64,000 bases of DNA from Streptomyces chattanoogensis. Lineage in GTDB: Bacteria > Actinomycetota > Actinomycetes > Streptomycetales > Streptomycetaceae. Below the pieces are notes generated by a model, which saw nothing but the letters and a program-made list of their open reading frames with translations, ran no database searches and was not told the origin of the DNA. Made by a program: the position numbers and the translations under genes. Shown here piece by piece: positions 16,971-47,707 of the stretch. The stretch covers positions 1 through 64,000 of the forward strand of contig NZ_LGKG01000164.1 in NCBI RefSeq assembly GCF_001294335.1, written 5' to 3'. How positions within the stretch are numbered: the stretch's first letter is position 1; each line of letters starts with the position of its first letter.

Positions 16971-16974
16971 GCCC

Positions 16975-28045: not shown

Positions 28046-28179
28046 CGTTTCGCTCTGGTGCTGTGCCGACGAGCGAACGCGCCAAGGTCCGCTAGGGGGC
28101 AAGGCATCCGAATGGGAAGGTCGGCCACTCGGCAGCATGGTGTTGATCGCCAAACCCGGCGAACCTATGCGGCTCAGCG

Positions 28180-29178
28180 TCATGCGTAGTGTTGCCGGCT
28201 GTCGTTCGGGCCGGGGCGGGCCCGCGAGCGGAAGGTGCGGCGGTAGGTGTCCGGGGGCACGCCGACGGTGCGGTTGAAGTGTCGGCGTAGCGTCGTGGCC
28301 GTGCCCATGCCGGTGGCTGCCGCGATGGCGTCGACACTGTCGTCGGTGGCCTCCAGCAACTCCTGGGCGTGGCGGATCCGCTGGGTCAGCAGCCACTGCA
28401 GCGGGGTGGTGCCGGTCACCGACCTGAAGTGGCGGCCGAGGTTGCGCGAGCTCATCCTTGCTTGGCGGGCCAGGTCTTCCACGGTCAGCGGATGGTCCAG
28501 CCGTTCGATCGCCCAGGGGAGCAGCTCGGCGAGCGGATGGTTGTCCCGGGCGGGCACCGGGGTGGTGACGAACTGGGCCTGGCCGCCGGCCCGATGGGGC
28601 GGAACGACCAGGCGGCGGGCAATCGCGTTGGAGGTCGACGAGCCGTGGTCGAGGCGGACGAGGTGCAGGCACAGGTCCATCGCGGCGGCCTTGCCGGCGG
28701 AGGTGAGCACGCTGCCGCTGTCCACGTAGAGCACGTCCGGGTCCACCTCCACCTGGGGGAAGCGGGCGCGCAGATCGCCGGCGTGCGCCCAGTGCGTGGT
28801 CGCGCGCCGTCCGTTCAGCAGCCCGGCGGCGGCCAGCACGAACGCGCCTGTGCAAAGGGAGGCCACGCGCGCGCCTGCCTCGTGGGCCGCGCGCACCGCG
28901 TCAACCAGGTCGGCGGGCGGATCCTCGTCGACGTCGGCCCAGCCAGGGACGATCACGGTGTCGGCGCGCGGGAGCCGGTCGAGCCCGTGGTCGGGGTCCA
29001 GCCGGAACCGGCCGACCTGCACGGCGCCCGGACCGCACAAGACGGTGTCGTACCAGGCGTCGGCCACGCCGGCCGGGCCGGCGCCGAAGACCTCGTACGC
29101 CACGGACAGTTCGAAGTGCAGCATCCCGTCGGTGACGGCCAGCGCGACAGTACTCACGTCCGTAATTGTACGGGTCAT
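28180..29178 (-). CDS. GlxA-family AraC-type transcriptional regulator
   Basis: A 332-aa regulator. Residues 1-190 are a DJ-1/PfpI-like domain (VSTVALAVTDGMLHFELSVA, DTVIVPGWADVDED, ARVASLCTGAFVLAAAGLLN with the nucleophile-elbow Cys, RATTHWAHAGDLRARFPQ). Residues ~215-315 are an AraC double HTH (HPLTVEDLARQARMSSRNLG and SVDAIAAATGMGTATTLRRH, then FNRTVGVPPDTYRRTF). Such regulators usually activate nearby metabolic genes. It is divergent from the saccharopine-dehydrogenase-like gene, with 79 bp between starts, so that gene is its probable target. Confidence 0.92.
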   Translation of the reverse strand: MTRTITDVSTVALAVTDGMLHFELSVAYEVFGAGPAGVADAWYDTVLCGPGAVQVGRFRLDPDHGLDRLPRADTVIVPGWADVDEDPPADLVDAVRAAHEAGARVASLCTGAFVLAAAGLLNGRRATTHWAHAGDLRARFPQVEVDPDVLYVDSGSVLTSAGKAAAMDLCLHLVRLDHGSSTSNAIARRLVVPPHRAGGQAQFVTTPVPARDNHPLAELLPWAIERLDHPLTVEDLARQARMSSRNLGRHFRSVTGTTPLQWLLTQRIRHAQELLEATDDSVDAIAAATGMGTATTLRRHFNRTVGVPPDTYRRTFRSRARPGPNDSRQHYA

Positions 29179-29257
29179 GGCGTTCCAGACACTCGTGTGG
29201 GAGGCCCGCCATCGTCAGGATGTCCACAGCAGATCATTTGATGACGAGGGGGAACCC

Positions 29258-30283
29258 ATGGGATCGAAGGTGACGGTGTTCGGCGCGTACGGGCACACCG
29301 GGCGCTTTGTGGTGGCGCAGCTGCTGGAGCGCGGGTTCGTCCCGGTTCTCTCCGGCCGCGACACCCACAAGCTGCAGGCACTGGCGGCGTCTCATCCCGG
29401 GCTCGACGCCCGCCCGGCGTCGGCCGGCGACCCGGATTCGCTCGACCGCGCGCTGGCCGGCGCGAAGGCCGTGATCAACTGTGCCGGGCCGTTCGCCGCG
29501 ACTGCCGCTCCCGTGATCGAGGCGGCGCTGCGCGTCGGAATCCCGTATGTGGATGTGGCGGCGGAAATCGAGGCCATCGTCGATACGTTCGAGGACTTCA
29601 CGGACCGCGCCCGCGCCGCAGGAGCGGTGATCGTCCCCGCGATGGCCTTCTACGGCGGCCTCGGCGACCTGTTGGCCACCGCGGCGATGGGCGACTGGAC
29701 GACGGCCGACGAGGCGCACATCGCCTACGCGCTGAGCAGTTGGCACCCCACCGCCGGAACGCGCGCCACGAGCTCGGTCTCCCGGCAGCGGCGGAACGGC
29801 CAACGCTTCGTCTACACCAACGGGCGGTTGGAGTACCGCAACGACGACCCGCCGACCCTGGAGTGGCCCTTTCCCGACCCGATGGGCACCCGGGCCGTCA
29901 TCGGGGAGTTCACGATGGCCGACGTCGTCACCGTCCCCAGCCACCTGTCCATCCCCGAGGTACGCACCCACATGACGGTCGAGGCAGCCAGGGACGTGCT
30001 GGCCCCGGACACGCCGACGCCAGCTGCGGTCGACGAACGCGGGCGGTCCGCGCAGACCTTCCTCGTCGATGCCGTCGTGCGCTCCGGCGACGTGGAACGG
30101 CGTGCCGTGGCGGGGGGACAGGACATCTACGCTGTCAGCGCGCCGCTCGCGGTCGAAGCGGTACACCGCATCCTCACGAGACAGACCAGCACGGTCGGTG
30201 TCACCGCCGCCGGCGAGATCTTCGACGCGCCCGACTTCCTCCGTGCCTTGTCCTCGCACATCTCCGTCGAACTGCCTCAGTAG
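29258..30283 (+). CDS. Saccharopine dehydrogenase-like NAD(P)-binding oxidoreductase
   Basis: A 341-aa Rossmann-fold protein beginning KVTVFGAYGHTGRFVVAQLL, with the GAxGxTG dinucleotide loop, then VPVLSGRDTHKLQALAA and GAKAVINCAGPFAATAAPVI, the pattern of saccharopine-dehydrogenase-like reductases. YVDVAAEIEAIVDTFEDF and VPAMAFYGGLGDLLATAAMG follow. The C-terminal half is the catalytic/dimer domain. The ATG at 29258 follows GAGGGGG. The substrate is unknown; the family includes lysine-pathway enzymes and trans-acting enoyl reductases. Divergent from the GlxA-type regulator. Confidence 0.85.
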   Translation: MGSKVTVFGAYGHTGRFVVAQLLERGFVPVLSGRDTHKLQALAASHPGLDARPASAGDPDSLDRALAGAKAVINCAGPFAATAAPVIEAALRVGIPYVDVAAEIEAIVDTFEDFTDRARAAGAVIVPAMAFYGGLGDLLATAAMGDWTTADEAHIAYALSSWHPTAGTRATSSVSRQRRNGQRFVYTNGRLEYRNDDPPTLEWPFPDPMGTRAVIGEFTMADVVTVPSHLSIPEVRTHMTVEAARDVLAPDTPTPAAVDERGRSAQTFLVDAVVRSGDVERRAVAGGQDIYAVSAPLAVEAVHRILTRQTSTVGVTAAGEIFDAPDFLRALSSHISVELPQ

Positions 30284-32229: not shown

Positions 32230-35200
32230 TCAGGCGGGGAAGGTCAGCTCCGTGGTGGGAATCCACAGGTCGCGGATGGTGAGCAGGGGCATCTGCTGTC
32301 CGGCCCCGAAGAGGTCGAGACCGAGGATGATCCGCGAGGTGCCGTCCCGGCGAGGCTTTTGCGTGCGGACGAACTCCTCGACGGCGTCCGTCAGTTTCCG
32401 GGACCAGGTGGCGTCGGCTGTCGGTGAGGCGTCGATCGAGGTCAGTGGCAGCAGGGCGATGGGCAGGATGGTCAGCGGGAGGCCCGGAGCGGGAGCGACC
32501 GCGTAGGCGTAGGCGGCGGTCATCTTCGCCGTCAGCCGACGGCCGTCAGCCCCGGTGAACAGGGCCTTGAAGAAGCCGTCCAGATGGTCCTGGAGCCGTG
32601 CGGGCCGCCCCTGGGTCCCGAACCGGTACGCGGCATGGAACAGCAGCGGGACGACCGGGGCGGCGGCCCGCACCTCGGGTGTGCTGAAGCGGAACTCCGG
32701 CTCCACGACGTCCGCGTTGCGTTCGACGTGGAGCTGCCCGGATGCCTCCTGGTCACGGAAGATGTCGCGGGGACCGAACTCCAGGGCGCACTCCGCCGGA
32801 GCCGCCGCATAGCGGAGGTACGTGCCGGGCGTACCGCGGCGCCGGTAGTGCCAGGAGCGCTGGACGCCCTGCGGCGGATCCGTCGCCACCGGCTCGTACT
32901 CGGCGCCGAGCAGTACGGCGGGCGGGGTGACGCCGGCCGCGCAGCGCAGGTCCATCCGGGCCCGGCCGTCCGTCTCCTCGGCCAGCCGCAGCCACACCTG
33001 GACGGTCTCCGAGGTGTCCTCCGGTGCGGCGGCGGACGGCTGCGCCGGTGGGGTCGCAGGCGGGGACGCCCACCGCTCGTACGCCGTGGCGACCGCGCCG
33101 AGCAGGGTCTCGAACGCCTGGAGCGCCGCGCGTGCGGTGAGCACGTCGGTGTCGTTGGGCTTGCTGCGGGCACCGACCGGCCGCAGATGGCGGTCGAGGT
33201 CCGCGGCGATCGCCGGATGGCTGGTGACGAAATCGGCGAGGGCGGCCCTCAGGGGTGTGTCCACGTCCTCGGGGGCCTCGGCCTCCTGGGCGGCCGTGCT
33301 GCCGCCGAACCGGACCGTCGCGTCGAGCCAGTCCTGTGCGGCGCTGCGGTAGGAGTAGCCCAGCGCATAGGTCCACAAGGGGAGTTTGTCCGGCGTACCG
33401 GGCTTGGCGGCGGGGCGGCCGGACTGGGCGGTGATGGACGGCGGTTGCGGAAGGGCGCGCAGCACCACGGGGAAGGTGACCGTGCCGAGCGCCTTGGTGA
33501 CCGCCCCGCTGACGAAGGTGATCCAACGGGCGTCGCGGTAACCGTCGATCCCGGGAACGTCCCGGATGTCGTGTTCCAGATGCGTGATCTCGTAGGTCAC
33601 GTCCAGGGGCACGGAGGCGTGTTCGGTCAGGCTCTTGGATTCGAAGAGGAATGCCAGGTACGAGGTGCTGGTGTGCTCACCGGGCCCGCGAAGGGGCACC
33701 TTGGCGGAGGAGAGTGCATAGCTCTTCGCGGTGTCCGTGGAGGCTTCCTCGCCGTGCGGCGGTGCCGCCATCGGCTGGCCGTAGAAGCGCGGGGGCGCGG
33801 CGACCCCGGGCGGCAGGCCATGGGCCCGGGCATGATCGGCCTTCAGCACCGCGACGCAGGTGACGGAGTAGGCGGCGGCGAGATGGTCGAGTAGCGCCTC
33901 GTGCAGCTTCTCGCCGGCCGCGGTGCGGGCCGCGCCGCTGGTGTCGAACGGCGCGCCGGGCGACACCGGCAGCACACTCGCGGCGATGGCCCCGGCGAGC
34001 TTCTTCTTGTGACCGAGGATCCTGCCGAGCAGCCCGTCCCGTTCCGGATGATCGATACCGGCCAGCCGGTCGAGGACGAACGCGGGCGAGGTGAACGTGG
34101 GGGCGAGCAGCGCGTCGACGGCGGCCAGTGCCTGGCGCGCCCAGACATTCGGATCCGCTCCGCGCAGGGTGAGCGTCTTCTTCTGTCCGGGGCGCAGTCC
34201 CTTGCCTGTCTCGTACCGGGAGACCTCGGCCGTCAGGTCGCACAGGGCGGTGGCGAGCGGCTTGGGCGCGAAGAAAGCGGCGGCGGAACCGCTCGGGAGG
34301 TCGCAGCCCAGACCGGCTTCCGGAGAGCCCGGACGGGCCAGCCGCACCGCCCACAGGGTGCGGTCCCGTTCGCTGTCCTTGCCAGGCGTGGCACTGGACG
34401 TGCCCAGCCGGAGCACGGACGTGGCGGTGGTGAACGCCTTCTCGAAGTCCTCGGCGAAGATGCGCAGATCACTGTGCCGGGCGACGTGCGGGGCGATCTC
34501 CGTGTGGTCGGTGAGCGCGCCGCTGACCCGCAGAGCCGGGTCGGCCAGTGCGGACTGCCGGGTGAGCTCGAAGCCGACCTTCAGCGGGATGATCTCGTCC
34601 TCGCGGAGTGCGTCCGGCGGTACGGGGAAGCTCAGCGTCACCGACGGCCGACCGGTGGCCGAGGTCCCGGCGGCACGGTGAGAGACGTGGACGAGGCAGT
34701 CGGCGACGAACTTCCGCACCGTGTCGGCCTGCGCGGTGCTGAGCGCGGTGCCGGGGTCCTTCAGCAGGGAGCTGAGGACACGGAACCCGACCGCGTACCC
34801 GCTCACCTCCGGCACCGCGGCGCCGTCGTAGTTCTGGACGAGCTGGAAGTACAGCAGCCGGAAGGCCCGCAGGTCCTTGACCGCGGCCTCCCGGCCGCCC
34901 GCGTACGCCTCGGTCTGCAGCTCCAGACTGACCGACAGTTCCGGGCCGTTCGCCCCCGCACGGTAGGTGTAGGCCGTGTGCACATGCGGCCACTGGGACA
35001 GGCCGATCAGCGCATCGGTGTACTGGACGGGCAGCGGAATCTCATCCACCGGACGGACGTGGGTGCCGGCGGCGAGAGTGTTCCCGAAGATGTCGAGCCA
35101 GCGCGTGCCGAACTGGGTGAGGGTGCCGACGCCGGCGTACGGGTTGGCGGACCGCGCCGGGAGCTGCGGGTCGCCGGGGGCGGGCGCCGGGTTGACCTTC

Positions 35201-38200
35201 GCGAAGGCGGTCAGCCCGGCGGTGAAGGTGTAGCGCAGCCGGTCCGCCGGGCTCGGCCCGGTCGTGGCGCTGTCGTGCTGAGGGCCGAACGGGAGCCCCT
35301 GCGGGCCGGCGCGGAAACCGGGGGTCTCCGTGATGCCGCTGCTCAGCAGCGAGTAGAGCTGTCGCAGGGTCGCCTCCGCGAACGCCGCCCGCTGCGCCTC
35401 GGTCGGGCTTTCCGGCAGCTCCGGGGGCGTGGGCGCAGCGGCCCGGGTGACCTCGATGCCCGCGTTGCCCCGGCCGAGGGCGGGCCGGACGGCGCGTTCC
35501 TCGGTGTCCACCCGCAGGGCCGTCCCCGCCGGGAACAGCCCGGACACCTCTCGGGCGGCATCCCCGAGGGCGTCGTACGACAGGCCGTAATACTGCCGCA
35601 GGGATGCGAACGTCGCCCCGGCGCCGTGCTCCCTGCCCGAGCCGGTGACGTGCACGAACCGGGGAACGCGCAGGACGGTACCGGCCGGCGGCGGTTCCGC
35701 CGTGCCCGGGTTGGCCTGCTTGAGGGCCTGCACGGTCACCGGGTGCTTCGCGCCGCGTGACCAGCGGTCGGCCACGGCCTGCCAGACGTCCGGCGTGCCG
35801 GCCTCGGCCGGTGTCACCTGGTGCCAGGCGCCCCCGATCCCGATCTCCCGGCCGGCCGTGAGCGGCCGGTCGGCGTTGCGGCGCGCCGTGGTGCCCGGAT
35901 CGCAGCCGTAGAGAGCGGCGAGGGCGGCGAGCGTGGTGTTCCCCTCCACCGGGGCGGACATCAGGTCCTTCGGTGCGGGCTGTGCGGCGAAGGTGAGGGT
36001 GGCAGAGCCAGGGGTAACGGGGTCGGCCGTCACCAGCGCGTTGACGTAGTGCGGCAGGGATCCGGCACCGGGTTGCCCCTTCGTCCGGTCGTAGGTGATC
36101 ACCAGGGTGAGGTCGGCCGTTCCGGAGGCGTCGAACAGCGCGTCGGGCAGCCCCCGGTCCTCGCCCGGGACGTGGTAGTGCAGGTAGTAGCCGCCCTTGC
36201 GGACGGTGGACTGCTCCCACAGCAGCCGGACCACCTCACCGGGCGGATTGGCGATGCCGCGGGGCGGCTGCGGGGTCGCCTTCGCCTCGGCCGGGACGGC
36301 GGAGGCGAAGGCGGGCGGCGCGGATTCGGTGGACAGATTGGTCCGGGTGAGGAACGCCAGCAGGCTCGCGCTCGCGGTGCCGGCGAGACCGCGCGTGCCG
36401 TGCGCGAGGGCCGGGTGCAGCAGGAACTGACCGGTGATCAGCTCCTCGCCGCCGCCGTCCAGGGCGGTGAGCAGCCGTTCCAGCAGGACGGCGTCGGCGG
36501 GGCTCGGACCCAGGATCTCGTAGGTGAACGGGGCGAGCGGTGGCGGCACCGATGTGGCGGCATCCGGCGGGGTCACATCGCTGGCGTGCGGCTTGCGAGG
36601 GGCCTGGTCGTCGTGTTGTGCAAGCCGGCGGACACGGAAGGAGACCCGGGTGGCGTAGGTGTAGTGGCTGACGGGGGTGAGCAGCGGCTCCGGCGCCCCG
36701 TGGGGGTGGGTGACCAACTCCGGGACGAACTCCGGCAGATAGGGCTGGGCCTGCCTGGGGGTGAACCGGCCGGCAAGCGCCGTGGCCCGGTCCTCGATGT
36801 GGTGGAGAAGCGCGTCCGGCAGGTCCCACAGGGCGGGCCGCAGCCCCGGACCGGTGGGGGGTGTGCCGCCGGGGGGCGTGACGACCTTGGCGACCTCGTC
36901 CAGGCCGGAGGTGGTCCACGGGGTGGCGGCCCGCGCGGGGTAGCGCCGCCCGGCGGTGAGCGTGCCGGGGAGCGCGGAGAGGCGGGCTTGCGGGTCGAAG
37001 GTGTGGGAACTCAGCCAGGTCAGGACGGTGGAGAGCTCCCGGGCCGCCTTGTCCAGGGTGAGGGTCACGGATGCGCCGGATGGCGATCCGTTGCACCTCA
37101 GCCAGGAGACCGTGCCCCGGTTCAAGGTGATCCGGAAGGTGGGGTCGGCCGGCAGCGCGGGCGTGGGAACCTGCTGTCCGGCCAGCTGGTAGAGCCCGTA
37201 CTCGTCCTGGCCCGTGGGGTAGAGGAAGTCGGCGGACGGTTTGAGGCCGGGCTGTTCCTTGGCGGGCAGCCGCATCCCGTGGAGGTGGAAGCGGGCGGCC
37301 ATCCCGGCGATGTCCCGCAGTCGGCCCTTGCCGGTCAGTGCCTGCCAGACATCGCCGAAGGCCAGGGTGGTGAGGCGGGGCAGCGGCAGGGAGTCGCCGG
37401 CGAACGCGAGGACGTCGGTCCCTGCCTCGGCCACCACGACCGCGGTGGTGCCGAGGCTGCGGGCGATGCCGCGCAGGGTGTCGCCCTGCGCCGTCGTGTA
37501 GCCGATGCCGGGCAGGGTCAGTGCGGTACCGGGTGTCAGCAGGCCGTGCTGGGCTTGCGTGCCCGCGTCGGCGGCGAGCTGCGCGACGGTGATGCCGAGC
37601 CGGTCCGCGACCCGGGTGAAGGAGTCACCCGGCTCGGTGATGACCGGGCCTGCGGCGCCGACCGTGACGCGCTGCCCCGGCGCCACCAGGCCGTGCACAT
37701 CCTTGCTCGCCTCGATCAGGGACGCGGGCCCGACCGTCCACCGGGGGGAGCCGGTCCGGTCGCTGTAGCGCTTGGCCACCGCGGTGACGGTCTCGTCGCG
37801 CTGGACGGTGCCCGCCAGCCCGTTCACGGTGACGGTACGCCCCGGCTCCAGTGGGTGGTCCGCGGCGGCCGCGGCGACCGAGGCCGGAGTGAGTGCGTTC
37901 CCCCGCTCGTTGGCCCAAGTGCAGGCCGCCGACGGCGACCGGTGCCCGTCCGAGAGCGGATACCGGCAGTCGGTGAAGGCGTCGTCGGCGGCCTGGAGGA
38001 GTTGCCGGGCGACCAGGGTGAACCAGTCCTGGAAGACGAACTGGGCGAACGACTCGTCCGGGTCCTCTGCCGTCCCGGCGTTCCCGGTGCTGTCCCCGGC
38101 GGGCTCCTTCCCGGCGTACTCCTGCTCGACGAGGGCGGCGAGCTGCCGGAAGTGCCGGGCCAGTGCGGTGCGGTAGGCACCGTTGAGGGTGACGTAGGTG

Positions 38201-41200
38201 GCCGGAGTGACCGTCTTGGTCCTGCCGGAGCCGAGGACCTGGCCGGGGTCGGGGAAGGTGGCCGTCAGCCCCGGGAAGGCCGGGAACAGGGTGCTGCCGG
38301 CCTTCAGGGCCGTGTTGCCGTCCCCGTCGGTGGGGGCCGGTGACAGATCGGCCGCGAAGCCGGGCTCCAGCAGGAGGTTCTCCAACCGTTCCCGGGTCAG
38401 CGGGGTGTCGGCCGGATCGGCCAGCTGCGCGGCGACCGACCGCAGCAGCGTGTCCGTCACCCTGGTTCCCGTCATGGCGTCCGGGTCCATCTCGGTGCCG
38501 GTCCCGTTGGTGTACGCGTCCACGACCCAGGCCAGCAGGGTGTGGCACAGGGCCTCGAAGGACGTCGTCCGGCCCCTGCTCTGCGAGGAGGGCACGTCGG
38601 TCACCAGGAACCACACGAACGCGCCCTGTGCGGGCTTGCCGCCCGCCGGGCCGGCCACGGTGAACTGGGCGGCCGGGTGCAGTTTCAGAGCGGGGTTGTC
38701 ACCGGACCGCTTGACGCGCTTCCACACGGGCCCGGTGACCGGGGCCGCCATGGTCAGCGACACCGTCCTCGCGTCCGCCGCGGTCACCGCCTGCGGGCGT
38801 TCCCAGGGCGGAACCCCGGCGGCGGTCTTGATCGTGAGGTCGGCGGTGACCGTGGTGGAGAAGGAGAAACTGAGGCTGATGCTGAACAGCCCGAGGCTGA
38901 TCCGTACCGACAGCCGGACGTTCACCGACGCCGAAGCGGAGAGCTGGATGTCGGCGAAGGACTGGTAGACGATCTTCGCATCCAGCCGCACGGTGAGGTC
39001 GCACGTCGCCTTGACGACGGCGAAGTCCACCGAACCGTACAGCCTGCCCAGGAGGCCGAAGGTCCCTTCCACCCGGAAGTAGTAGTCGCTCTGCAGGGCA
39101 CCTCCGGCGCTCGGCGCCGGCAGCGCCCCGGTCTCGCCGGACTTGACGGCCGGGGGGTGCCAGCCGGCGATGACGCCTTCCACGATGCCGAACACCGTGA
39201 CGCTGAACCCCGCCTTGAAGATGCCCTTGTCGATGGTGTGCCCCACCCCGGCCTGGAGCCCCACCCCGAAAACGAACGCCGGACCGAACGCCCCGTAGCG
39301 GGGCACCGGCAGATGTGCCTCGGAGCCGATGCTCAGCTTGCCGAAGTAGAGTCCCGCCGAACCGATCACCGGGATGCCGCCGATCACCGCCTGCAGGGTG
39401 AACGACCGCGAGAAGTCCACGCGGTACGGGAAGCCCAGGTCGATCAGGAAATCGCCGTTGGTGTAGATCCGCACGCCGATTGCCGGCAGGGTGACCGAGA
39501 ACGCCCCCAGGTCGAAGGTGCGCAGCGCCGCGGGGAAGGTGAACTCCGCCTGGTAGACGCCGACATCGTCGGTGACCTTCTTGTAGAGCACATCGAGCGC
39601 GAGTCCGGCGAGCACCTTCGCCTTCTCGCCGTTCAGCTCCAGCCGCAGCCCGTACAGATGCGGATCGTTGAAGACCAGACGGCAGTCGACGGTCCACTGC
39701 CCGGCGGCCTGCAGCAGGCCGAAGTGCGCGGCCACCAGCCAGTTGCTGCTCGGGTCGTAGCGTGGCTGGAGCGGGGCGGTGCTCTTCGGGTCCACCGGGA
39801 GCTGCCCCTGCCCCGAATCCGGGATGCCCGTCGGGTGCTCCGGCGTGCCCTCCAGCGCGTCGACGATGTCCTTCGTGGTGGTCATGGTGGCCGCGTTGAC
39901 GGCCACCCGCTGGCCGATCATCAGCAGCCACAGGTCGAAGTAGGACGCGCCCTGCGCGGTGGTGGCCGGCATGCGGGTCACGTCCTGGCCCTTGGAGGGG
40001 TCGAGCAGCGGCGAGCCCTCCAGACCGCCGATCGTCGTCGATCCGTCGATGGCGAGCGTGACCTTCGCGTCGGATCCCTCGCCCCGCCGGAACGTCAGGC
40101 CCTTGACCGTCACCACTCCGACGCTGATCGGCCGGGACAGCGTGTACGTCGCCTCGAAGCGCGGTTTCCCGGGTTGCGCCTTGATCCGGATCGTCAGCCC
40201 GAGCCCGTCCAGCGGGATGCTGTTGAGGAAGTCCCACGGCTGGTCGAGGGTGAAATAGGGGTTGTTCACGGTGCGTACCAGCGACTGCAGCAGCCGGCCC
40301 ACCGACCAGCCGGTGAGGTTGAGGGTGAGGGTGCCGTCGGTGAGGTCATAGGCGCCGCGGATGCCCTCCCACTGGACCCAGACCACCGTGCTGCTGCCGG
40401 TCCCGCTGCCGCCGGGGTCGGCCGACGCCGGCCCGAAGCGGTAGCCGGCTGCCACCTCGGCACCGATCTCCTTCAGGTACAGGTCACCGACGATCTGCCC
40501 GGCGAACCGCGAACCGGCCTCCCGCGCCGCGTCGTAGTCCAGCCCCACCTGCGCCCTGGCGGTGCCGATATGGGGAATCGACCAGGACATCGCGGCGGCG
40601 ACGGAGTACGTGGACCGACCGCTGCCCGGCGGGATGACCGCACCGACCCCGAGCTGATCGATCTGCAGGCCGGCCAGGAAGTCCGGCAGCCGGTACTCGG
40701 GGAAGAACTGCCCGACCAGATGGTCCAGGGCCAGCGGCCGGTCGAGTGCCGCGTTCAGCTGCCACACGGCGGGCGTGACGGTGCTGTCGTAACCGATGTC
40801 CACCAACGCGTTCACCGGCCCGATGGCGAGCCCGCCGGACACCCCCACCACGTACGCGGTCCGGCCTCCCGTGGCGCCCTTCGCCGGCCGGAGCGCGGTC
40901 AGCGACACCTCCATGTCCCGCACCGTGAGCAGCGGTTTACCGCCCTCATGGAGGAACGCCACGTCCGCGTCCACGACAAAGCCGAACGCATAGCGCCGCT
41001 CGGCCGGATACAGGCCCAGCCGTACGTCCGACATGTCCAGCGCCACGCCCTTGGGGAGCCGCACCGTGCCGGAGGTCAGCTCCTGGAGCAGGGTGCCGAA
41101 GGACACGGTGCCTGCGTAGCGCGCGTCGACGGACAGGTCCGACCCGATCGAGAGCACGAACTGCCGGGTGAACACCTGGGGCCACAAGGTGACATACGCG

Positions 41201-42414
41201 GTGAGCGTCACCGAACTCGCCGACGTGGCCGGCTTCAGCGGTGTGGTCACCGTCCAGTACAGGTCGAAGCCGTCCACCGCCAGGTTTTCCCCGGCGTCCA
41301 GGCCGGGGAAGAGCGGGACACTGCCGCTGCCCCGGGTGGACAGCAGCACGCCCGCCTGCGTCAGTGACGGCTTCCCCGAGGGGGCCTCGCCGAGCATGCC
41401 CAGCAGAACCAGCTGCCGCAGGCCGACCGAGGACAGCAGTCGCTGGAGAGGCTCCGGCACCTCGGTGAGGAACGACCGGCCGCTCGGGCCGCGGATCAGT
41501 GCGATGGCGTCGCCCGGTGTCATCGGGGCGCCCTCGGCGGTCAGTTCGAAGTGGAACGTCGGCACCCCGCTGTCGGACACCGAGCCCAGCAGGTCGTACG
41601 CGCCCCGCTTGCCCCCGAGATCGAGGCGCAGCCGCAGCCCGAGCCAGGGGAGCCGGTCCTCGCCGGCCGCCTTGCTGCTGCCGTCCGTGGTGCGCAGCCC
41701 GATCGCCGGTGCCGACGCGTCGACCAGCAGGATCTTGAGGTTCTGCTCGGGCAGAGGCGCCGCGAGATCCAGCACGGGGTACAGCACCGGATTCTTCCCC
41801 GGCTGCTCACCCGTCACCGCCGTCACCTTGTCGAGCTGAACGGGCCCGCTGAGACGGTAGGAGGTGCCCGGATCCCACTGGATGTCGAAATTGCGCAGCA
41901 GGTTCTTCAGCTGTGCGGGCACCTTGACCAGGGCTGCGAAATTCTGCCCGGCCCGAAGATCGAGCGGTTTCTCCTGCCATGTGCGCCGGCACGGCCGGGT
42001 GGTGAAGAGAAATGCGGGGGCAGCGAGCGGGAGACGATCGAAAGGGGGCCCGGTCATCGCCGTGAAAGACGAGGCGAACGACCAGCCGGTGAGGGCGGTT
42101 TCGATCAGCACCTCGACCGATGTGCGGCTCCCCCGCTCGAAGACGAGCGTGACCTGGGATTTGGTCGCGTCGTAACCGAGAAAAGACAATTGCACGCCCG
42201 AGACCGTGAGCACGCTGCCGTCGACCTGCACCTGCTTGCCGGAGGTGAACTGCAGCGTGAGTCCGCCCGCCCCCTTCAGCCGGAATGCCTTCGCCAATTC
42301 CGCGTCCAAACCGTCCGGCGGAGTCGCTCCGGCGGCTCTGAGGTACTGGGCGTTGAACTGCACGCTGCCGGTCGCCTGGCGGAAGGCATCGGCCAGTGAG
42401 TCGATCTCGGTCAC
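32230..42414 (-). CDS. Giant 3394-aa protein with beta-rich N-terminus and LysM-like repeats
   Basis: No overall family recognised with certainty. The first ~1250 residues are beta-rich and Gly/Leu/Asp-patterned (LTLQFTSGKQVQVDGSVLTV, GLYFGKLSIGSEAHLPVPRY, YFRVEGTFGLLGRLYGSVDF), reminiscent of DUF6603-type proteins. LysM-like peptidoglycan/chitin-binding repeats are seen near residues 1520-1585, 1590-1630 (ITEPGDSFTRVADRLGITVA) and 1638-1670 (YTTAQGDTLRGIARSLGTTA), with a further set near 2150-2305 (VEGNTTLAALAALYG). The final ~1000 residues are unassigned. There is no signal peptide or membrane segment at the N-terminus. The GTG at 42414 follows GGAAAGG and lies 15 bp after the nuclease gene stop: last gene of the operon. 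The open frame of over 10 kb argues for selection. Confidence 0.85.
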   Translation of the reverse strand: MTEIDSLADAFRQATGSVQFNAQYLRAAGATPPDGLDAELAKAFRLKGAGGLTLQFTSGKQVQVDGSVLTVSGVQLSFLGYDATKSQVTLVFERGSRTSVEVLIETALTGWSFASSFTAMTGPPFDRLPLAAPAFLFTTRPCRRTWQEKPLDLRAGQNFAALVKVPAQLKNLLRNFDIQWDPGTSYRLSGPVQLDKVTAVTGEQPGKNPVLYPVLDLAAPLPEQNLKILLVDASAPAIGLRTTDGSSKAAGEDRLPWLGLRLRLDLGGKRGAYDLLGSVSDSGVPTFHFELTAEGAPMTPGDAIALIRGPSGRSFLTEVPEPLQRLLSSVGLRQLVLLGMLGEAPSGKPSLTQAGVLLSTRGSGSVPLFPGLDAGENLAVDGFDLYWTVTTPLKPATSASSVTLTAYVTLWPQVFTRQFVLSIGSDLSVDARYAGTVSFGTLLQELTSGTVRLPKGVALDMSDVRLGLYPAERRYAFGFVVDADVAFLHEGGKPLLTVRDMEVSLTALRPAKGATGGRTAYVVGVSGGLAIGPVNALVDIGYDSTVTPAVWQLNAALDRPLALDHLVGQFFPEYRLPDFLAGLQIDQLGVGAVIPPGSGRSTYSVAAAMSWSIPHIGTARAQVGLDYDAAREAGSRFAGQIVGDLYLKEIGAEVAAGYRFGPASADPGGSGTGSSTVVWVQWEGIRGAYDLTDGTLTLNLTGWSVGRLLQSLVRTVNNPYFTLDQPWDFLNSIPLDGLGLTIRIKAQPGKPRFEATYTLSRPISVGVVTVKGLTFRRGEGSDAKVTLAIDGSTTIGGLEGSPLLDPSKGQDVTRMPATTAQGASYFDLWLLMIGQRVAVNAATMTTTKDIVDALEGTPEHPTGIPDSGQGQLPVDPKSTAPLQPRYDPSSNWLVAAHFGLLQAAGQWTVDCRLVFNDPHLYGLRLELNGEKAKVLAGLALDVLYKKVTDDVGVYQAEFTFPAALRTFDLGAFSVTLPAIGVRIYTNGDFLIDLGFPYRVDFSRSFTLQAVIGGIPVIGSAGLYFGKLSIGSEAHLPVPRYGAFGPAFVFGVGLQAGVGHTIDKGIFKAGFSVTVFGIVEGVIAGWHPPAVKSGETGALPAPSAGGALQSDYYFRVEGTFGLLGRLYGSVDFAVVKATCDLTVRLDAKIVYQSFADIQLSASASVNVRLSVRISLGLFSISLSFSFSTTVTADLTIKTAAGVPPWERPQAVTAADARTVSLTMAAPVTGPVWKRVKRSGDNPALKLHPAAQFTVAGPAGGKPAQGAFVWFLVTDVPSSQSRGRTTSFEALCHTLLAWVVDAYTNGTGTEMDPDAMTGTRVTDTLLRSVAAQLADPADTPLTRERLENLLLEPGFAADLSPAPTDGDGNTALKAGSTLFPAFPGLTATFPDPGQVLGSGRTKTVTPATYVTLNGAYRTALARHFRQLAALVEQEYAGKEPAGDSTGNAGTAEDPDESFAQFVFQDWFTLVARQLLQAADDAFTDCRYPLSDGHRSPSAACTWANERGNALTPASVAAAAADHPLEPGRTVTVNGLAGTVQRDETVTAVAKRYSDRTGSPRWTVGPASLIEASKDVHGLVAPGQRVTVGAAGPVITEPGDSFTRVADRLGITVAQLAADAGTQAQHGLLTPGTALTLPGIGYTTAQGDTLRGIARSLGTTAVVVAEAGTDVLAFAGDSLPLPRLTTLAFGDVWQALTGKGRLRDIAGMAARFHLHGMRLPAKEQPGLKPSADFLYPTGQDEYGLYQLAGQQVPTPALPADPTFRITLNRGTVSWLRCNGSPSGASVTLTLDKAARELSTVLTWLSSHTFDPQARLSALPGTLTAGRRYPARAATPWTTSGLDEVAKVVTPPGGTPPTGPGLRPALWDLPDALLHHIEDRATALAGRFTPRQAQPYLPEFVPELVTHPHGAPEPLLTPVSHYTYATRVSFRVRRLAQHDDQAPRKPHASDVTPPDAATSVPPPLAPFTYEILGPSPADAVLLERLLTALDGGGEELITGQFLLHPALAHGTRGLAGTASASLLAFLTRTNLSTESAPPAFASAVPAEAKATPQPPRGIANPPGEVVRLLWEQSTVRKGGYYLHYHVPGEDRGLPDALFDASGTADLTLVITYDRTKGQPGAGSLPHYVNALVTADPVTPGSATLTFAAQPAPKDLMSAPVEGNTTLAALAALYGCDPGTTARRNADRPLTAGREIGIGGAWHQVTPAEAGTPDVWQAVADRWSRGAKHPVTVQALKQANPGTAEPPPAGTVLRVPRFVHVTGSGREHGAGATFASLRQYYGLSYDALGDAAREVSGLFPAGTALRVDTEERAVRPALGRGNAGIEVTRAAAPTPPELPESPTEAQRAAFAEATLRQLYSLLSSGITETPGFRAGPQGLPFGPQHDSATTGPSPADRLRYTFTAGLTAFAKVNPAPAPGDPQLPARSANPYAGVGTLTQFGTRWLDIFGNTLAAGTHVRPVDEIPLPVQYTDALIGLSQWPHVHTAYTYRAGANGPELSVSLELQTEAYAGGREAAVKDLRAFRLLYFQLVQNYDGAAVPEVSGYAVGFRVLSSLLKDPGTALSTAQADTVRKFVADCLVHVSHRAAGTSATGRPSVTLSFPVPPDALREDEIIPLKVGFELTRQSALADPALRVSGALTDHTEIAPHVARHSDLRIFAEDFEKAFTTATSVLRLGTSSATPGKDSERDRTLWAVRLARPGSPEAGLGCDLPSGSAAAFFAPKPLATALCDLTAEVSRYETGKGLRPGQKKTLTLRGADPNVWARQALAAVDALLAPTFTSPAFVLDRLAGIDHPERDGLLGRILGHKKKLAGAIAASVLPVSPGAPFDTSGAARTAAGEKLHEALLDHLAAAYSVTCVAVLKADHARAHGLPPGVAAPPRFYGQPMAAPPHGEEASTDTAKSYALSSAKVPLRGPGEHTSTSYLAFLFESKSLTEHASVPLDVTYEITHLEHDIRDVPGIDGYRDARWITFVSGAVTKALGTVTFPVVLRALPQPPSITAQSGRPAAKPGTPDKLPLWTYALGYSYRSAAQDWLDATVRFGGSTAAQEAEAPEDVDTPLRAALADFVTSHPAIAADLDRHLRPVGARSKPNDTDVLTARAALQAFETLLGAVATAYERWASPPATPPAQPSAAAPEDTSETVQVWLRLAEETDGRARMDLRCAAGVTPPAVLLGAEYEPVATDPPQGVQRSWHYRRRGTPGTYLRYAAAPAECALEFGPRDIFRDQEASGQLHVERNADVVEPEFRFSTPEVRAAAPVVPLLFHAAYRFGTQGRPARLQDHLDGFFKALFTGADGRRLTAKMTAAYAYAVAPAPGLPLTILPIALLPLTSIDASPTADATWSRKLTDAVEEFVRTQKPRRDGTSRIILGLDLFGAGQQMPLLTIRDLWIPTTELTFPA

Positions 42415-42429
42415 GGTCGGGCCTTTCCG

Positions 42430-43791
42430 CTATACCTCGATGACGATGGGCAGGTGGTCGCTGATGCTCCGGACGCGTGCCTCGTAGGACTTCCTGAACA
42501 CGTCCTCTTCCGTGCCCACCGGGGGCTTGGGGTCCTCGGGAGCCTGATCTCCGCTCGGGGGCGGCAACTCGACCAGCCGCCCCATCGTGAAATGTCCGGT
42601 CGGTAGTTGGCCGTTGTTCTTGAACGGCCGGTACGGCGAACCGGCGACCGCGTTGACGATGCTCGGACCGTTGGCCCCTGGATTCGGCTTCGCATTCGCA
42701 CCGTGGGCGGTGAATGCGTTGTCCAGGGCGGTGACCATCTTGTTCGTCTTCTGCATGGGCTTGCGGTCGATGTAGCGGAAGCCCGGGTAAGGCGATTCCT
42801 CTTGGTTTCCGGGCCCCCACGTCGCCTTGTCCTTGCCACGGATGATCGTGACGAAGTAGTCGCGGGAACCGTCCTTCTGATTGAGCTGACCCAGGTGGGA
42901 AGACGGATCGAGGGCAAGCTCGTACTTCTGGCTTCCCGGGGACGAGGGGGTGATAAGGGCGTGATAGCCCCCCTGTTTGTCGGGAAGGTCATCGATCGAG
43001 TCGAGATTGAAGTCGCCGATGAGGACTCTGGCTTCCGATGCGACGACGGGGGTGGCGACGTCCTTGAGCCCGGCGAGTCTTCTGAGGTAGTCCTGCTGGT
43101 CGCCGCTTGCCGGTCCGTGCACCCCGATGATATTCAGCTCGCGGGTGACCTGGTCGTTCTCGACCTCCACGAAACGCGCCCGGTACGGGTCTCGTACGGC
43201 GTCCGAGGGCTTGATCTTGTTCTTCTGATAGCTGGCGCGCAGCCCGAGACTGGTCTGCGGGGCCGCCGAGTTCTCGTACTCTGGTGGGTTCGCGATGCCT
43301 CTGACCTGCTGAAGATATGTGGTCACGCACGGGTCGAGTTTCCTCTCCCCCACCACCTTGCGGGCATAATTCTTACCGAAGGACACATCCTTCTGAGGGC
43401 GCCCCGGAGGAGGGGAATCTCCCGGCTTGTTCCCCTGCGAGAATTTCGGTCCGGTGAAGAACCGCTTCCGACCGCTGGGGTCCAGTGCCAGGTAGAGCAT
43501 GGCGACCCCGCCGTTTCCGCCGCAGTTGAACGGGGGGATGAGTCGCCAGTTGGAGTCTTCCTTCGCCAACTTCGCCTGGAGGTCGAGGCAGGCCGCGTGG
43601 TTGTCGATCAGCTGGCCGTTTTTTGTCCCGGCAATTTCGACCAGGACAATGATGTGGGGCTGAACAGCCTTGATGACGCCCAGTACGTAGGCCTGGTACT
43701 CGTTCCTCATGTGCTTGGGGGTACTGGTCCCCGGGCTGTTTTCGCCGAAGTTCTCGATGTTCCAGCTCAGAATCCGCGTCGGTGCCGTCAC
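42430..43791 (-). CDS. Endonuclease/exonuclease/phosphatase (DNase I-like) family protein
   Basis: A 453-aa member of the EEP superfamily, which contains DNase I, CdtB, exonuclease III and Mg-dependent phosphatases. Catalytic motifs visible: RILSWNIENFG (Asn11), PHIIVLVEIAG (Glu52), NIIGVHGPASG (His), VLIGDFNLDS (Asp-Asn) and SISDHLPIVIEV at the C-terminus (Asp445-His446). The set looks complete, so it is likely active. It is longer than the 250-300 aa core because of inserts around residues 100-190 and 300-420. No signal peptide. The GTG start overlaps the previous stop (GTGA), so translation is coupled to the 1165-aa protein. Substrate DNA, RNA or phospholipid cannot be told apart. Confidence 0.85.
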   Translation of the reverse strand: MTAPTRILSWNIENFGENSPGTSTPKHMRNEYQAYVLGVIKAVQPHIIVLVEIAGTKNGQLIDNHAACLDLQAKLAKEDSNWRLIPPFNCGGNGGVAMLYLALDPSGRKRFFTGPKFSQGNKPGDSPPPGRPQKDVSFGKNYARKVVGERKLDPCVTTYLQQVRGIANPPEYENSAAPQTSLGLRASYQKNKIKPSDAVRDPYRARFVEVENDQVTRELNIIGVHGPASGDQQDYLRRLAGLKDVATPVVASEARVLIGDFNLDSIDDLPDKQGGYHALITPSSPGSQKYELALDPSSHLGQLNQKDGSRDYFVTIIRGKDKATWGPGNQEESPYPGFRYIDRKPMQKTNKMVTALDNAFTAHGANAKPNPGANGPSIVNAVAGSPYRPFKNNGQLPTGHFTMGRLVELPPPSGDQAPEDPKPPVGTEEDVFRKSYEARVRSISDHLPIVIEV

Positions 43792-46700
43792 GGTGCACTC
43801 CCCACCGCCACGCTCTGCGGCTTCTTCTTGCGGTACGCGGCGTACCAGCCGAGGCTGCCCTTGCCGGCCGGGTCGCCGAAGAGGAAGAAGTTGATGCTGG
43901 CGCCTGGTGGGAGTTTGGCGATGCCGAGAAAGCTCAGCCCGGCGTTGGAAAGGCGGAGCGTGAACAGCTTGGAGGTCTTCTCGTATTGCAGGGCAAGGCC
44001 GCTGATCGACACCTTGAGCACACCTTCGAGGGACAGCGTCTTGGCGCCGGGCGCGGTGCCGGGCAGGCGGAGACCGACGAACGCGGAGTGCCGCGGGTCG
44101 CCCGCCCGGGACTGCGGTGACCAGGCCAGCAGCATCGACGAGCTGAACCCGGCCTTGGCCGCGAGCGCACCGGCCGTCCCCATGGTGACCTTGGTGACGA
44201 TGCCGTACCACGGTCCGTCGAGTTCCTGGACCACAGGTCCGATCGCGACCGGCAGAAATCCGTACCCGGCGGGCCGCTTGCCGGCGGGCGCGGCCACGAA
44301 CCCGTCGGGCTGCAGGGCGAATTGCGAGAACAGTCCGCCCTCGCGGGGCCGGCTCGACGCGGTGTCGAAGGCGAGCCCCGAGGGGTCGAAGCGGAAGCTG
44401 ACGGCGTTGGGGGTGGCGGTGGGCGAGGTGAGGTCGACCTGCAGGTGGGAGAAGGCCAGGCCCTGCCCGGACGGCGGGGCGCCGACCGGCGGGCTGCCGA
44501 ACGACAGCATGTCGAATGCGGAGCCGTCGCCGCTGGTCAGCGCGGCGAAGTCGAGTGAGCCCCAGATCAGGAAACGGCTGCGGATCTCGTGCTGGTCCGC
44601 GCTGACGGTGTTGAATTGGACCCGGTCGAAGGCGACTGCCTGCAGGACGTTGCTGTCGAGGGTGAAGACCGTCGGGGCGTCGGTCTCCATGACGTAGGTG
44701 GCCCGGCCGCCCTGACTTTGGTAACGGCCCTTCAGCACCACCGCGTTGGACGCCACCGGCCGTGTTCCGTACGAGGTGGCGGTCACCTGCGATCCGAACA
44801 GTTCGCCGGCGGTGAGCTGCGCCCGGCTGCGGAAGTCGGCGAGCGCGGCGTTGTGGAAGAGAGCCTGGAGCTGCAGGACCCGGAATGCGTACCCCTGGAC
44901 CCCGTCCGGTGTCACCAGCGGCAGGTCCGGGTCGGCTCCGGCGCCCACGCTCGCGCGGAATTCGGGTGTCCGGTAGTCGATGAGGGCGAACAGGCTGCTG
45001 TCGCCGGTGATGCCGATGCTGCCTCCGGTGGCCGCGACGGGCGTGACGGTGATGCCGAAGTGGTGGGCCCGGAACTGACTGAAGTCGATCCCGGCGGACA
45101 GCCCGCGGATCTGCTCGGGCAGTCCGGAGGGGTCGATGCGGGCCCCCAGGACGAGGACGCCCCGCCAGTTCGGGTCCTGGACATGGCGCGCGAAGTCGGC
45201 GTACAGGGTGTTGCCGCGTCCCGCCTCGTCGATGGCCTCCGCGAGGTACCCCTGGAGCCACTGGGACAGCGTGCCGACGGCCTGCTCGTCGCCCGCCGCG
45301 GTGTCGCGGTGCGCGGACACGGAACCGGGCAGCAGGGAGAAGTCGGCCGTGTCGGTCCACTTGGCGGGATGCCGTACGCGGTCGAGGACGGAGCCGTCGC
45401 AGAACTTGAAGATCACCACATTGCGGAAATCACCCAGGGCGGATCCCTTGCCGACGTCGGCGTGCATCGTCCAGCCGCCGATGGTGACGGAGTTGCGGAA
45501 CATCGCGCCGCCCTCCGGCGCCTGCTCCCGGCCCGTCGCCATGGTGCCGAAGGGCGCGGGGTTCACGGCGACGGCGAAGACCTGATTGGCCTGGAGCAGG
45601 TTCACCATCGCCTGGGTGGGGGCGGACAGCGCCAGGTCCGCGGGGTGCGGGCCTGCGCTTCCGGTCCGGGCCAGTGTCACCGCCCGGTAGGTGCTGCCGG
45701 ACAGCTCGACCAGGAACCCCTGCGGGCTCGTCGCCCTGATGGTGTCTTCCACGGCGTCGGCCACCGGGGCCGGCGAGCCGCTCCGCACCGCGACGGCACG
45801 AACGGCGGCCTTCCGCAGGGGCGACAGGATCTGGCTTTCGAAAGGGGCCAGTTCGTCGGCCGGAAAGCCGTCCGGGACGGTCCCGAGACCGGCATAGGGG
45901 ACCAGCGGTACGCCGAACCCGGGAGAACCGGGGAGGAGGGTGCCGATCTCCCGCAGCGGCAGCACCTCTCCGCCACCGACCTTCGCACCGCTCCCGTACA
46001 GCGGCGCACTCTCGGGCTGGGTACGGTGCTCCGCGCTGCCCCCCTCGGCCGGCACCACCGTCACATACGAGGTCCGGCAGCGGTCCGACAACCGCGCGGC
46101 CAGCTCTCCCGGTTCGATCGCCGATGCCTGCTGGTAGGGGAACCGCGCCGCATAGGCCGCCCGGCCGGGTACGAAGCGGAACCGGTCGCAGTCCTGGTCC
46201 GATCCGGACGGCCAGGAGCGGAAGGTCATCCGGTCCAGCCCGTAGAGGCCGCAGAGCAGTTCGTGGGAGGTGCCCGGCGACGTCTCGTCCGCGACAGCCG
46301 GTGCCCAGTCGCCCGCGTAAGTGACGTAGAGCGAAGAGACGTTGGCACTCTCCTCGGTCCTCTGGAGTACCAACGATCCGGCGTACGACCGGAGTTCGTC
46401 CACTTCCCCGCCGATCGGCAGCAGGTCGATGGCGCGCCCCGTGGCGGTACGGAAATGGCTGGGCACCCGGAGAGCGGGGTTCGAGGAGGGCGTGAGAAAG
46501 GAGCGCAGCCGGCCGGTCGCGACGTCCGTGAGCGGCGAGGTGTTGTAGGGGTCGAGGGGGTCGAAGGCGCCGCACCACGGCACACGTTCATCAGCCGTCG
46601 GGGCGAGGACGGGATAGGTCTGGGCGACGGTCTCCCCGTCCGTTCCGGGGTGCGCGTACCGGATGCCCTTCGGCAGGTCGCGGAACGAGCCGAGCAGCGG

Positions 46701-47285
46701 CATCGTTCCCGAGGAGAGCAGGAAGCAGCCGGCGAGCGGCCCGGAGAAGGGGATTCCGCCCTTGGTGGCGAGGGGGCAGGAGTCGTCGTCGTTGCCCTTG
46801 CCTCCGAAGCGGATACCCGGGTCCGGGGAAAGGGCGAGGACCGCGGGGTGGTCGTCGCCGATGCTGAGAGCAGTGCCGGACGGAACGCCGAAGAGGTATC
46901 CGCTCCCCAGGTTCTGTGACCAGTCGTCGGTGGTCTGTGGGTACGGGTCCGGCCTCAGGCGGAGGAAGTACGCGACGTCGATTCCGTGCTCCGCCAGCTG
47001 TGGCCTGATCCAGAGGCAGTACCACTTGTCCGCGGCGAACTCCCGTACGGCAGAGATGAATGCGTCAATGCTGTCCTGGTGATGTTCTTCGTACGGCACC
47101 TGCGATGCGAACAGATAGTGTGCGTGAGATCTAAGGGAGCGCCTCACCGGGATTGTTTCCTCCGGTGCGGGTTCCTCGGGGAGTAAGAGCCCGCGCCAGC
47201 CCAGCTCGTTCGGCCCGGAGGGCAGAGCATAGAGAAGCGTCTGGCCGACACGGGTGAAGGAGAGTTCCTCGTCGTTCGCCGTCAT
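43788..47285 (-). CDS. Large uncharacterised protein (1165 aa) of the giant operon
   Basis: No domain recognised. It begins TANDEELSFTRVGQTLLYAL and has no signal peptide or membrane helix. The middle is mixed alpha/beta (SIDAFISAVREFAADKWYCL, LCGLYGLDRMTFRSW), and the last ~300 residues are beta-rich (SLEGVLKVSISGLALQYEKT, RLSNAGLSFLGIAKLPPG). The GLSFLG element recalls GVQLSFLGYD in the N-terminus of the 3394-aa protein, hinting at a common fold or shared ancestry. The ATG at 47285 lies 77 bp after the small first gene; its stop overlaps the nuclease start by 4 bp. Probably a structural or targeting component. Confidence 0.85.
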   Translation of the reverse strand: MTANDEELSFTRVGQTLLYALPSGPNELGWRGLLLPEEPAPEETIPVRRSLRSHAHYLFASQVPYEEHHQDSIDAFISAVREFAADKWYCLWIRPQLAEHGIDVAYFLRLRPDPYPQTTDDWSQNLGSGYLFGVPSGTALSIGDDHPAVLALSPDPGIRFGGKGNDDDSCPLATKGGIPFSGPLAGCFLLSSGTMPLLGSFRDLPKGIRYAHPGTDGETVAQTYPVLAPTADERVPWCGAFDPLDPYNTSPLTDVATGRLRSFLTPSSNPALRVPSHFRTATGRAIDLLPIGGEVDELRSYAGSLVLQRTEESANVSSLYVTYAGDWAPAVADETSPGTSHELLCGLYGLDRMTFRSWPSGSDQDCDRFRFVPGRAAYAARFPYQQASAIEPGELAARLSDRCRTSYVTVVPAEGGSAEHRTQPESAPLYGSGAKVGGGEVLPLREIGTLLPGSPGFGVPLVPYAGLGTVPDGFPADELAPFESQILSPLRKAAVRAVAVRSGSPAPVADAVEDTIRATSPQGFLVELSGSTYRAVTLARTGSAGPHPADLALSAPTQAMVNLLQANQVFAVAVNPAPFGTMATGREQAPEGGAMFRNSVTIGGWTMHADVGKGSALGDFRNVVIFKFCDGSVLDRVRHPAKWTDTADFSLLPGSVSAHRDTAAGDEQAVGTLSQWLQGYLAEAIDEAGRGNTLYADFARHVQDPNWRGVLVLGARIDPSGLPEQIRGLSAGIDFSQFRAHHFGITVTPVAATGGSIGITGDSSLFALIDYRTPEFRASVGAGADPDLPLVTPDGVQGYAFRVLQLQALFHNAALADFRSRAQLTAGELFGSQVTATSYGTRPVASNAVVLKGRYQSQGGRATYVMETDAPTVFTLDSNVLQAVAFDRVQFNTVSADQHEIRSRFLIWGSLDFAALTSGDGSAFDMLSFGSPPVGAPPSGQGLAFSHLQVDLTSPTATPNAVSFRFDPSGLAFDTASSRPREGGLFSQFALQPDGFVAAPAGKRPAGYGFLPVAIGPVVQELDGPWYGIVTKVTMGTAGALAAKAGFSSSMLLAWSPQSRAGDPRHSAFVGLRLPGTAPGAKTLSLEGVLKVSISGLALQYEKTSKLFTLRLSNAGLSFLGIAKLPPGASINFFLFGDPAGKGSLGWYAAYRKKKPQSVAVGSAP

Positions 47286-47362
47286 TTCCGTATGCCCTGC
47301 CGTTTCTGCGCTTTCCGGTTATGCCCCTGATCTCGGGAGGCGGAGGCGAGTCCGCGACCGGC

Positions 47363-47707
47363 TCATTCGCCCTCGAGGTTCCAGTAGCGGAAGGTTCGCG
47401 CGTGCAGGTGAGTTCCCATCGGGTTGCTGATCTTCATGTCGTAGTAGAGGTGACCCTGGCGCCGCTCGGTGGGGATGTAGAGGCGGAAGAGGGCGCCCTT
47501 GTTGACGACGATTTCTCCGTCGACCGTCAGGTCGTCGGTCGTCTCGTCCACGGGCTGCGACTGGGTGAGCTTGGTGGTCCACAGGCGCTGCTTCGAGTCG
47601 AAAATCTCGATCAGCACCTCCTGCGGACCGTCCTTCTTCACCGTGGACTGGATCCAGATGCGATCTGTCACATCCTCACGCTTGGGTCCCCACTGACTGT
47701 CGGCCAT
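47363..47707 (-). CDS. Small beta-rich protein, first gene of the giant operon (114 aa)
   Basis: Not recognised. The ATG at 47707 follows a good GAAGGAG site. The product (ADSQWGPKREDVTDRIWIQS, EVLIEIFDSKQRLWTTKLTQ, LFRLYIPTERRQGHLYYDMK) has alternating hydrophobic residues typical of a single beta sandwich, with no signal peptide and no Cys. It precedes the 1165-aa protein by 77 bp on the same strand, so it is very probably the promoter-proximal gene of the operon. An in-frame upstream extension to 47842 lacks a ribosome site. Confidence 0.8.
   Translation of the reverse strand: MADSQWGPKREDVTDRIWIQSTVKKDGPQEVLIEIFDSKQRLWTTKLTQSQPVDETTDDLTVDGEIVVNKGALFRLYIPTERRQGHLYYDMKISNPMGTHLHARTFRYWNLEGE

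Follow-up and report, generated by a model that had tools for sequence, protein, structure and literature searches.

Do four adjacent genes in a stretch of Streptomyces chattanoogensis DNA, two of which code for very large proteins, form a single system, and if so, what might it do? The stretch (hereafter the window) comprises 64,000 nucleotides, positions 1 to 64,000 of contig NZ_LGKG01000164.1, and the genes occupy 47707-32230 on its minus strand. In gene order, they encode a 114-amino acid (aa) protein (SMALL, 47363..47707), a 1165-aa protein of no known family (BIG1, 43788..47285, ATG start), a putative enzyme of 453 aa with a DNase I-like fold (EEP, 42430..43791, GTG start), and a protein of 3394 aa that closes the cassette (the giant, 32230..42414, GTG start). 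The genes are separated by 77 bp, a 4-bp overlap between BIG1 and EEP, and 15 bp, which confirms the arrangement, sizes, and spacings in an original prediction made from the letters of the window. Since G+C content at codon position 3 is 0.88 in the 1165-aa frame and 0.91 in the 3394-aa frame, both are supported as coding. The 453-aa gene was passed over by automatic gene picking because its open frame extends to 45360; we placed its start by the catalytic domain, which is where its relatives start too.

A cassette that recurs across distant phyla

Searches with residues 600-1165 of BIG1 and residues 1-1240 of the giant returned 217 and 33 proteins, respectively, each including the window's own record. 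Among the matches listed, which for BIG1 are the best 120 of 217, 12 BIG1/giant pairs probably lie on the same contigs, and the best named relatives of both proteins are from Kitasatospora. Most source names listed for the core proteins are "hypothetical" or "LysM domain-containing." In a genome collection with one genome per species, we found 54 BIG1 loci, spanning Pseudomonadota, Bacteroidota, Acidobacteriota, Cyanobacteriota, Bacillota, Spirochaetota, and one Gemmatimonadota contig end, to which Kitasatospora and Embleya records add the actinomycetes. Of the 52 judgeable loci, 51 have a giant downstream of BIG1 in the same orientation, L024 and L060 being excluded as they stop at contig ends. 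In Pseudomonas paraversuta (L038:9980-12871), a shortened BIG1 (963 aa) with no giant is probably a decayed cassette.

To follow the giants, 18 loci were extended from the giant start (L065-L082), and two further copies were found in L083 and L084, where the giants are cut by the stretch. The extended loci have giants of 2860-4333 aa. Clostridium magnum is the exception, with a giant in two frames (1932 and 1893 aa); in Rahnella, a 3721-aa frame is followed by a 320-aa frame that also matches the giant. Past the giants, none of the four window proteins has another match in these loci. Since relatives of 3407-3721 aa exist elsewhere, and giants in one frame are present at other loci, the frame of more than 10 kb is genuine and not a misassembly. 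In Pseudovibrio denitrificans JCM 12308 (L059:9089-22737), BIG1 and the giant are in several frames, through either decay or sequencing error, and are intact in other Pseudovibrio. On a Lysinibacillus plasmid (L092:15458-25089), a short giant of about 2100 aa, perhaps a minimal form, begins just upstream of the barrel region described below.

Among close relatives, the cassette is rare. BIG1 is present in 3 of 61 genomes (own included), in the own genome alone among 200 of the family, and in 2 of 396 genomes of the phylum, the second being a doubtful 87-residue match; the family and phylum surveys scored two to three candidates per genome, and divergent copies may be missed. The cassette is found in 8 of 72,556 plasmid records and in none of the phage records, and split giants occur on annotated plasmids of Mycetohabitans and Paenibacillus. 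Such a distribution looks like horizontal spread.

The core proteins co-vary. BIG1 and giant-core distances are correlated with a Mantel r of 0.93 over 59 loci and 0.92 over 42 thinned loci, the observed value being reached in 0 of 999 permutations. For 19 thinned loci with an EEP enzyme, the coefficients are 0.88 for BIG1-giant, 0.79 for giant-EEP, and 0.70 for BIG1-EEP. Compared with the nearest relative among the EEP loci, the window's giant core is 55% identical and its BIG1 44%, vs. 29% for its EEP. The linkage and modularity of the cassette are well supported. The proposal that the four genes form one recurrent system is borne out by this conserved neighborhood: the genes do co-occur elsewhere, and the giant falls into no unrelated known family.

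Of the two upstream proteins, neither BIG1 nor SMALL matches a Pfam family. The AF2 model of BIG1 (pLDDT 88.5, pTM 0.81) has no significant match in PDB or BFVD. SMALL has weak BLASTP matches (E 3e-8 to 2e-4) to small proteins encoded upstream at L028, L014, L011, and L020, and these four are its only direct matches outside the window. Small beta-type proteins of this kind, mostly one or two genes per locus, form one single-linkage BLAST cluster of 41 open reading frames (ORFs) from 27 loci. Further upstream proteins of 420-1528 aa connect three cassettes by BLAST (L061:4782-9368, L064:7959-9221, and L057:6378-7766), the longest of them (1528 aa) containing fn3 domains.

The gene between BIG1 and the giant is exchangeable

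The type of enzyme encoded between BIG1 and the giant, a position we refer to as the slot, varies across loci. Among the 54 loci, it is EEP in 31 (30 by profile and L024 by frame reading), a metallo-beta-lactamase (MBL) in 8, and a stand-alone protein of about 540 aa, module X, in 2. In nine others, six of which are from Pseudovibrio, X is fused to the N terminus of the giant. No slot enzyme was recognized in two loci, and two are unjudged. Beyond the 54 loci, L084 and L088 have an MBL, both of them aligned, and reading alone assigns one to L085 and L093. X is fused to the giant in L083, L089, and L090, and no slot enzyme was recognized at L091 and L092. Searches of Pfam, NCBIfam, and PDB sequences gave nothing convincing for module X. 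Fusions of X to the giant occur in Pseudovibrio, Roseovarius, Rahnella, Clostridium, Azospirillum, Mycetohabitans, and an Oscillatoria, and they are the best evidence that a slot protein would touch the giant. Judging from their position, EEP and MBL might do so as well.

We mapped slot type on a BIG1 tree of 62 rows, built by a quick method. Since it changes only eight times if free and fused X are merged, or nine times if they are kept separate, vs. a mean of 27 when the five slot labels are shuffled, the slot is, as far as this tree can tell, inherited within clades yet swapped several times. For example, an Oscillatoria (L064) has EEP within an otherwise MBL-rich clade. The row of the window falls in an EEP-bearing clade, where the nearest by path is a Bacteroidota locus. 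As for unusual arrangements, three tandem EEP genes lie between BIG1 and the giant (L011:13786-18063) in a Bacteroidota metagenome-assembled genome (MAG), SZAS-92, which also holds two adjoining cassettes with MBL slots (L084 and L063).

The window's own slot enzyme appears to be a divergent member of the EEP superfamily, which includes nucleases, sphingomyelinases, and phosphatases. It scores 19 bits against PF03372 (Exo_endo_phos), below the cut-off of 24.5 (E 0.0013), and in NCBIfam it matches only the MnuA membrane nuclease model (19.7 bits vs. a cut-off of 185). We aligned it with 32 EEPs from 30 loci, the L037 row being cut at its end by slicing. Each of N11, E52, H225, D260, N262, D445, and H446 is retained by 32 or all 33 of the proteins. 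These motif residues (N, E, H, DxN, and SDH), which we take to be the catalytic ones, are thus intact as originally predicted, and because they are kept, the window's EEP is probably active.

The slot MBLs match the MBL domain of ComEC/Rec2 by profile (PDB 30bt, E 1.5e-14), and H97, D101, H102, and the HHG motif are invariant over 11 sequences. One report describes Mn-dependent nuclease activity for the ComEC/Rec2 domain (PMC8579336). However, the slot protein is free-standing beside the giant, and, unlike in ComEC, no channel part is seen in the aligned slot MBLs. The slot protein at L085 (same-genus relative G004, about 16500-17532), which was read separately, has an MBL-like fold with its metal-binding motif lost, and is perhaps a dead enzyme retained for structure.

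LysM and a predicted beta-barrel in the giant

LysM is the sole Pfam family matched by the giant (PF01476, 40.5 bits for the whole protein vs. a cut-off of 20.9). Only residues 1595-1635 (37510..37632, minus strand), also found by the genome search, pass the cut-off. When six LysM-like slices were scanned singly, one passed (E 1e-5), one within residues 1632-1695 (37330..37521) remained below cut-off (E 0.0035, 17.7 bits), a further pair was marginal (E 0.15 and 0.22), and the last two had no match. Profiles therefore do not support the claim of at least five LysM units in this protein: one passes, and a second is weak. Relatives nevertheless have LysM, a match at E ≤ 0.1 being present in 12 of 13 giants. 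Elsewhere in the S. chattanoogensis genome, a further LysM match (G000:C185:35368-35490, L002) lies inside a 1415-aa frame.

Residues 822-1197 (38824..39951, minus strand) are predicted to form a beta-barrel with amphipathic strands. The polar/hydrophobic alternation score of these strands is 2.50 vs. 1.14 ± 0.21 in shuffles, and alternation is found in all 34 testable relatives (z > 3). In Foldseek, all six rows at E ≤ 0.001 for the model of the giant are outer-membrane or secretion-channel proteins. The barrel region falls inside the best conserved part of the giant, and in the alignment of 13 giants, conservation reaches near the C terminus, with columns that hardly vary as far as residue 3321 of 3394. 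The predicted fold is reminiscent of outer-membrane beta-barrels (porins, LptD, and SlpA). However, in contrast to these, the giant has no signal peptide, the barrel is embedded in a chain of 3394 residues, and the protein is also found in Clostridium, Paenibacillus, Lysinibacillus, and actinomycetes.

In agreement with the original prediction, a Kyte-Doolittle scan of the four window proteins revealed no signal peptide and no clear membrane anchor, the top 19-residue means being 1.79 (EEP, residue 36) and 1.70 (giant, residue 3306). BIG1 and the giant have no convincing leader at other loci either, by a rough hydrophobicity scan in which some starts are those of extended frames, and the aligned EEPs begin directly at the catalytic domain.

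Comparison with known systems

Tc (ABC) toxin complexes combine giant leaderless proteins with an exchangeable enzyme, as does the cassette, and TcB-TcC chains appear as weak rows in the Foldseek search with the giant (6sup, E 1.8e-3, prob 0.28). We see this as a functional analogy only: no RHS, TcA, or TcB family was found in the four proteins (Pfam and NCBIfam), and the exchangeable enzyme is encoded by its own gene or fused to the N terminus of the giant, whereas in Tc toxins the exchanged part is a C-terminal hypervariable region. Release by lysis is described for one Tc toxin (PMC10847048).

Polymorphic toxins also have exchangeable enzyme modules, and LysM-like wall-binding domains are reported among their accessory domains (PMC3482391). 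In contrast to these, the C terminus of the giant is conserved in the 13 giants aligned, not hypervariable, there is no known secretion leader, and no immunity gene was recognized among the window ORFs scanned. Extracellular contractile injection systems are large leaderless complexes that may carry toxins. Genes for a sheath, tube, baseplate, or AAA motor were not found among the four genes and the 20 neighboring window ORFs scanned. The cassette thus fits no injection system among those tested, as had been stated from the outset.

Since membership fails on a tested defining feature for Tc, contractile, and polymorphic toxin systems alike, four profile libraries give no convincing family beyond LysM for the core proteins, BIG1 has no match in the two structure libraries, and no description of such a cassette was recognized in the literature searched, we consider the cassette new as a system.

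A possible mechanism and its rivals

The account that we favor, to which we give somewhat less than even credence, is that of a modular complex that docks on the cell wall, engages a membrane, and brings an exchangeable enzyme to its target. BIG1 and the giant would be the obligate core of one large complex, and the slot enzyme, swapped between lineages, would dock on the N-terminal part of the giant. The leaderless core would probably be released through lysis or some other non-Sec pathway, the LysM units would fix the complex on peptidoglycan (or chitin), and the amphipathic beta-barrel would engage the membrane of the target cell. There, the enzyme, in the window an EEP phosphodiesterase and most likely a nuclease, would act on or in the target, possibly to antagonistic ends. 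The original proposal, a large complex that targets the cell wall, carries an enzyme, and is perhaps released by lysis, is partly supported: it agrees with LysM, the barrel-like region, the lack of signal peptides, and the exchange at the slot. A toxic nature and DNase activity of the enzyme are putative. The exchangeable slot (EEP, ComEC-like MBL, or X), the X-giant fusion, and the membrane-type barrel region had not been part of that proposal. Going further, the cassette might define a new class of leaderless giant delivery machines, present in at least seven phyla, that combine LysM docking, a single-chain barrel in the membrane, and an exchanged payload at a fixed slot beside, or fused to, the N terminus of the giant. 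This we offer as tentative.

Several observations weigh against this account. No immunity, lysis, or protein-secretion gene was recognized among the 20 window ORFs scanned, where the sole exporter-like genes are an ABC pair (24898-27245) that is 5 kb away. A signal-peptide-like start is present in 9 of 11 aligned slot MBLs (all nine from Bacteroidota records; L061 and L088 are without) and in several upstream small proteins. Since these have leader-like starts while EEP, BIG1, and the giant are leaderless, no single obvious export route is common to the parts. As for the barrel, the model of the giant has a pTM of just 0.46, and the Foldseek barrel rows have TM-scores near 0.1. Moreover, across relatives, the hydrophobic barrel face varies less than the polar one (entropy 1.11 vs. 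1.46, p 0.015), unlike what would be expected for the lipid-exposed face of a porin, a comparison confounded by the smaller hydrophobic alphabet. As for the enzyme, weak PDB profile matches of EEP include a sphingomyelinase (E 0.022), and sequence does not decide between a nuclease and a lipase/phosphatase role, so its activity is putative. The EEP of a Symploca MAG (L018, 12868-14253) carries S in place of N11 and N in place of D260 and may be impaired or inactive, and 4 of the 62 BIG1-tree rows have no recognized slot enzyme.

There are two main rivals. In the first, the cassette would be an intracellular anti-phage or anti-plasmid system: an invader would be detected or held by BIG1 and the giant, and its nucleic acid destroyed by the exchangeable enzyme. 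Sporadic distribution, occurrence on plasmids, exchangeable nuclease-type effectors, and a core without convincing signal peptides would all suit such a role, as would the weak PADLOC matches of the one slot MBL scanned, that of L042, to LmuA (E 5.8e-8) and RTasMBL (E 1e-4). The four window proteins themselves match no PADLOC family at E ≤ 1 (and nothing convincing in PHROGs), and LysM, the membrane-type barrel, and the leader-like starts on several MBLs and small proteins point outside the cytoplasm. We hold defense to be unlikely.

The second main rival, which we hold to be quite unlikely, is that the giant is a carrier of hydrophobic ligands, its beta-sheet enclosing or coating lipid as in apolipoprotein B, with slot enzymes acting as phosphodiesterases on lipids or phosphate esters. 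Like apolipoprotein B and large lipid transfer proteins, the giant has a very long amphipathic beta-sheet, and ApoB rows appear in structure searches. However, the N-terminal profile of the giant has no PDB sequence match at E ≤ 10, the six significant Foldseek rows are outer-membrane or secretion-channel proteins, and the MBL slot is closest to the nuclease domain of ComEC.

That same resemblance to ComEC, combined with signal-peptide-like starts and a wall-binding LysM, could point to a nonantagonistic extracellular or envelope system for turnover of DNA or cell wall, such as the DNA of dead neighbors. We find this improbable, as scanning 20 ORFs of the window revealed no gene for uptake or competence, and carriers of 3400 aa would seem excessive. 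Chance neighbors or an assembly artifact, for which nothing speaks except rarity in close relatives, deserve practically no credence, being refuted by a gene order kept in at least seven phyla and by giants of similar length elsewhere.

What makes the cassette notable is that, at 15 kb and with a core of two very large proteins, one of which lacks a structural match, it recurs across distant phyla. Should it be a delivery or toxin-like machine, its architecture would be new, one giant chain having a membrane barrel and a swappable enzyme within or beside it; should it be a defense system or lipid carrier, it would still be a new module with interchangeable enzymes. Each swap in the slot predicts an interface on the N-terminal part of the giant.

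Genomic setting

The G+C content of the cassette is 0.700 vs. 0.689 and 0.688 in the flanks. Its neighbors are ordinary chromosomal genes, encoding the ABC transporter pair, an AraC-type regulator, a saccharopine-dehydrogenase-type protein, a histidine kinase, a flavohemoglobin-type protein, and a protein kinase. The sole part of the window common to the compared stretches of both relatives is 28175-30275, which covers the end of the DJ-1/AraC regulator gene and the saccharopine-dehydrogenase-type gene and shares 83% identity with the two.
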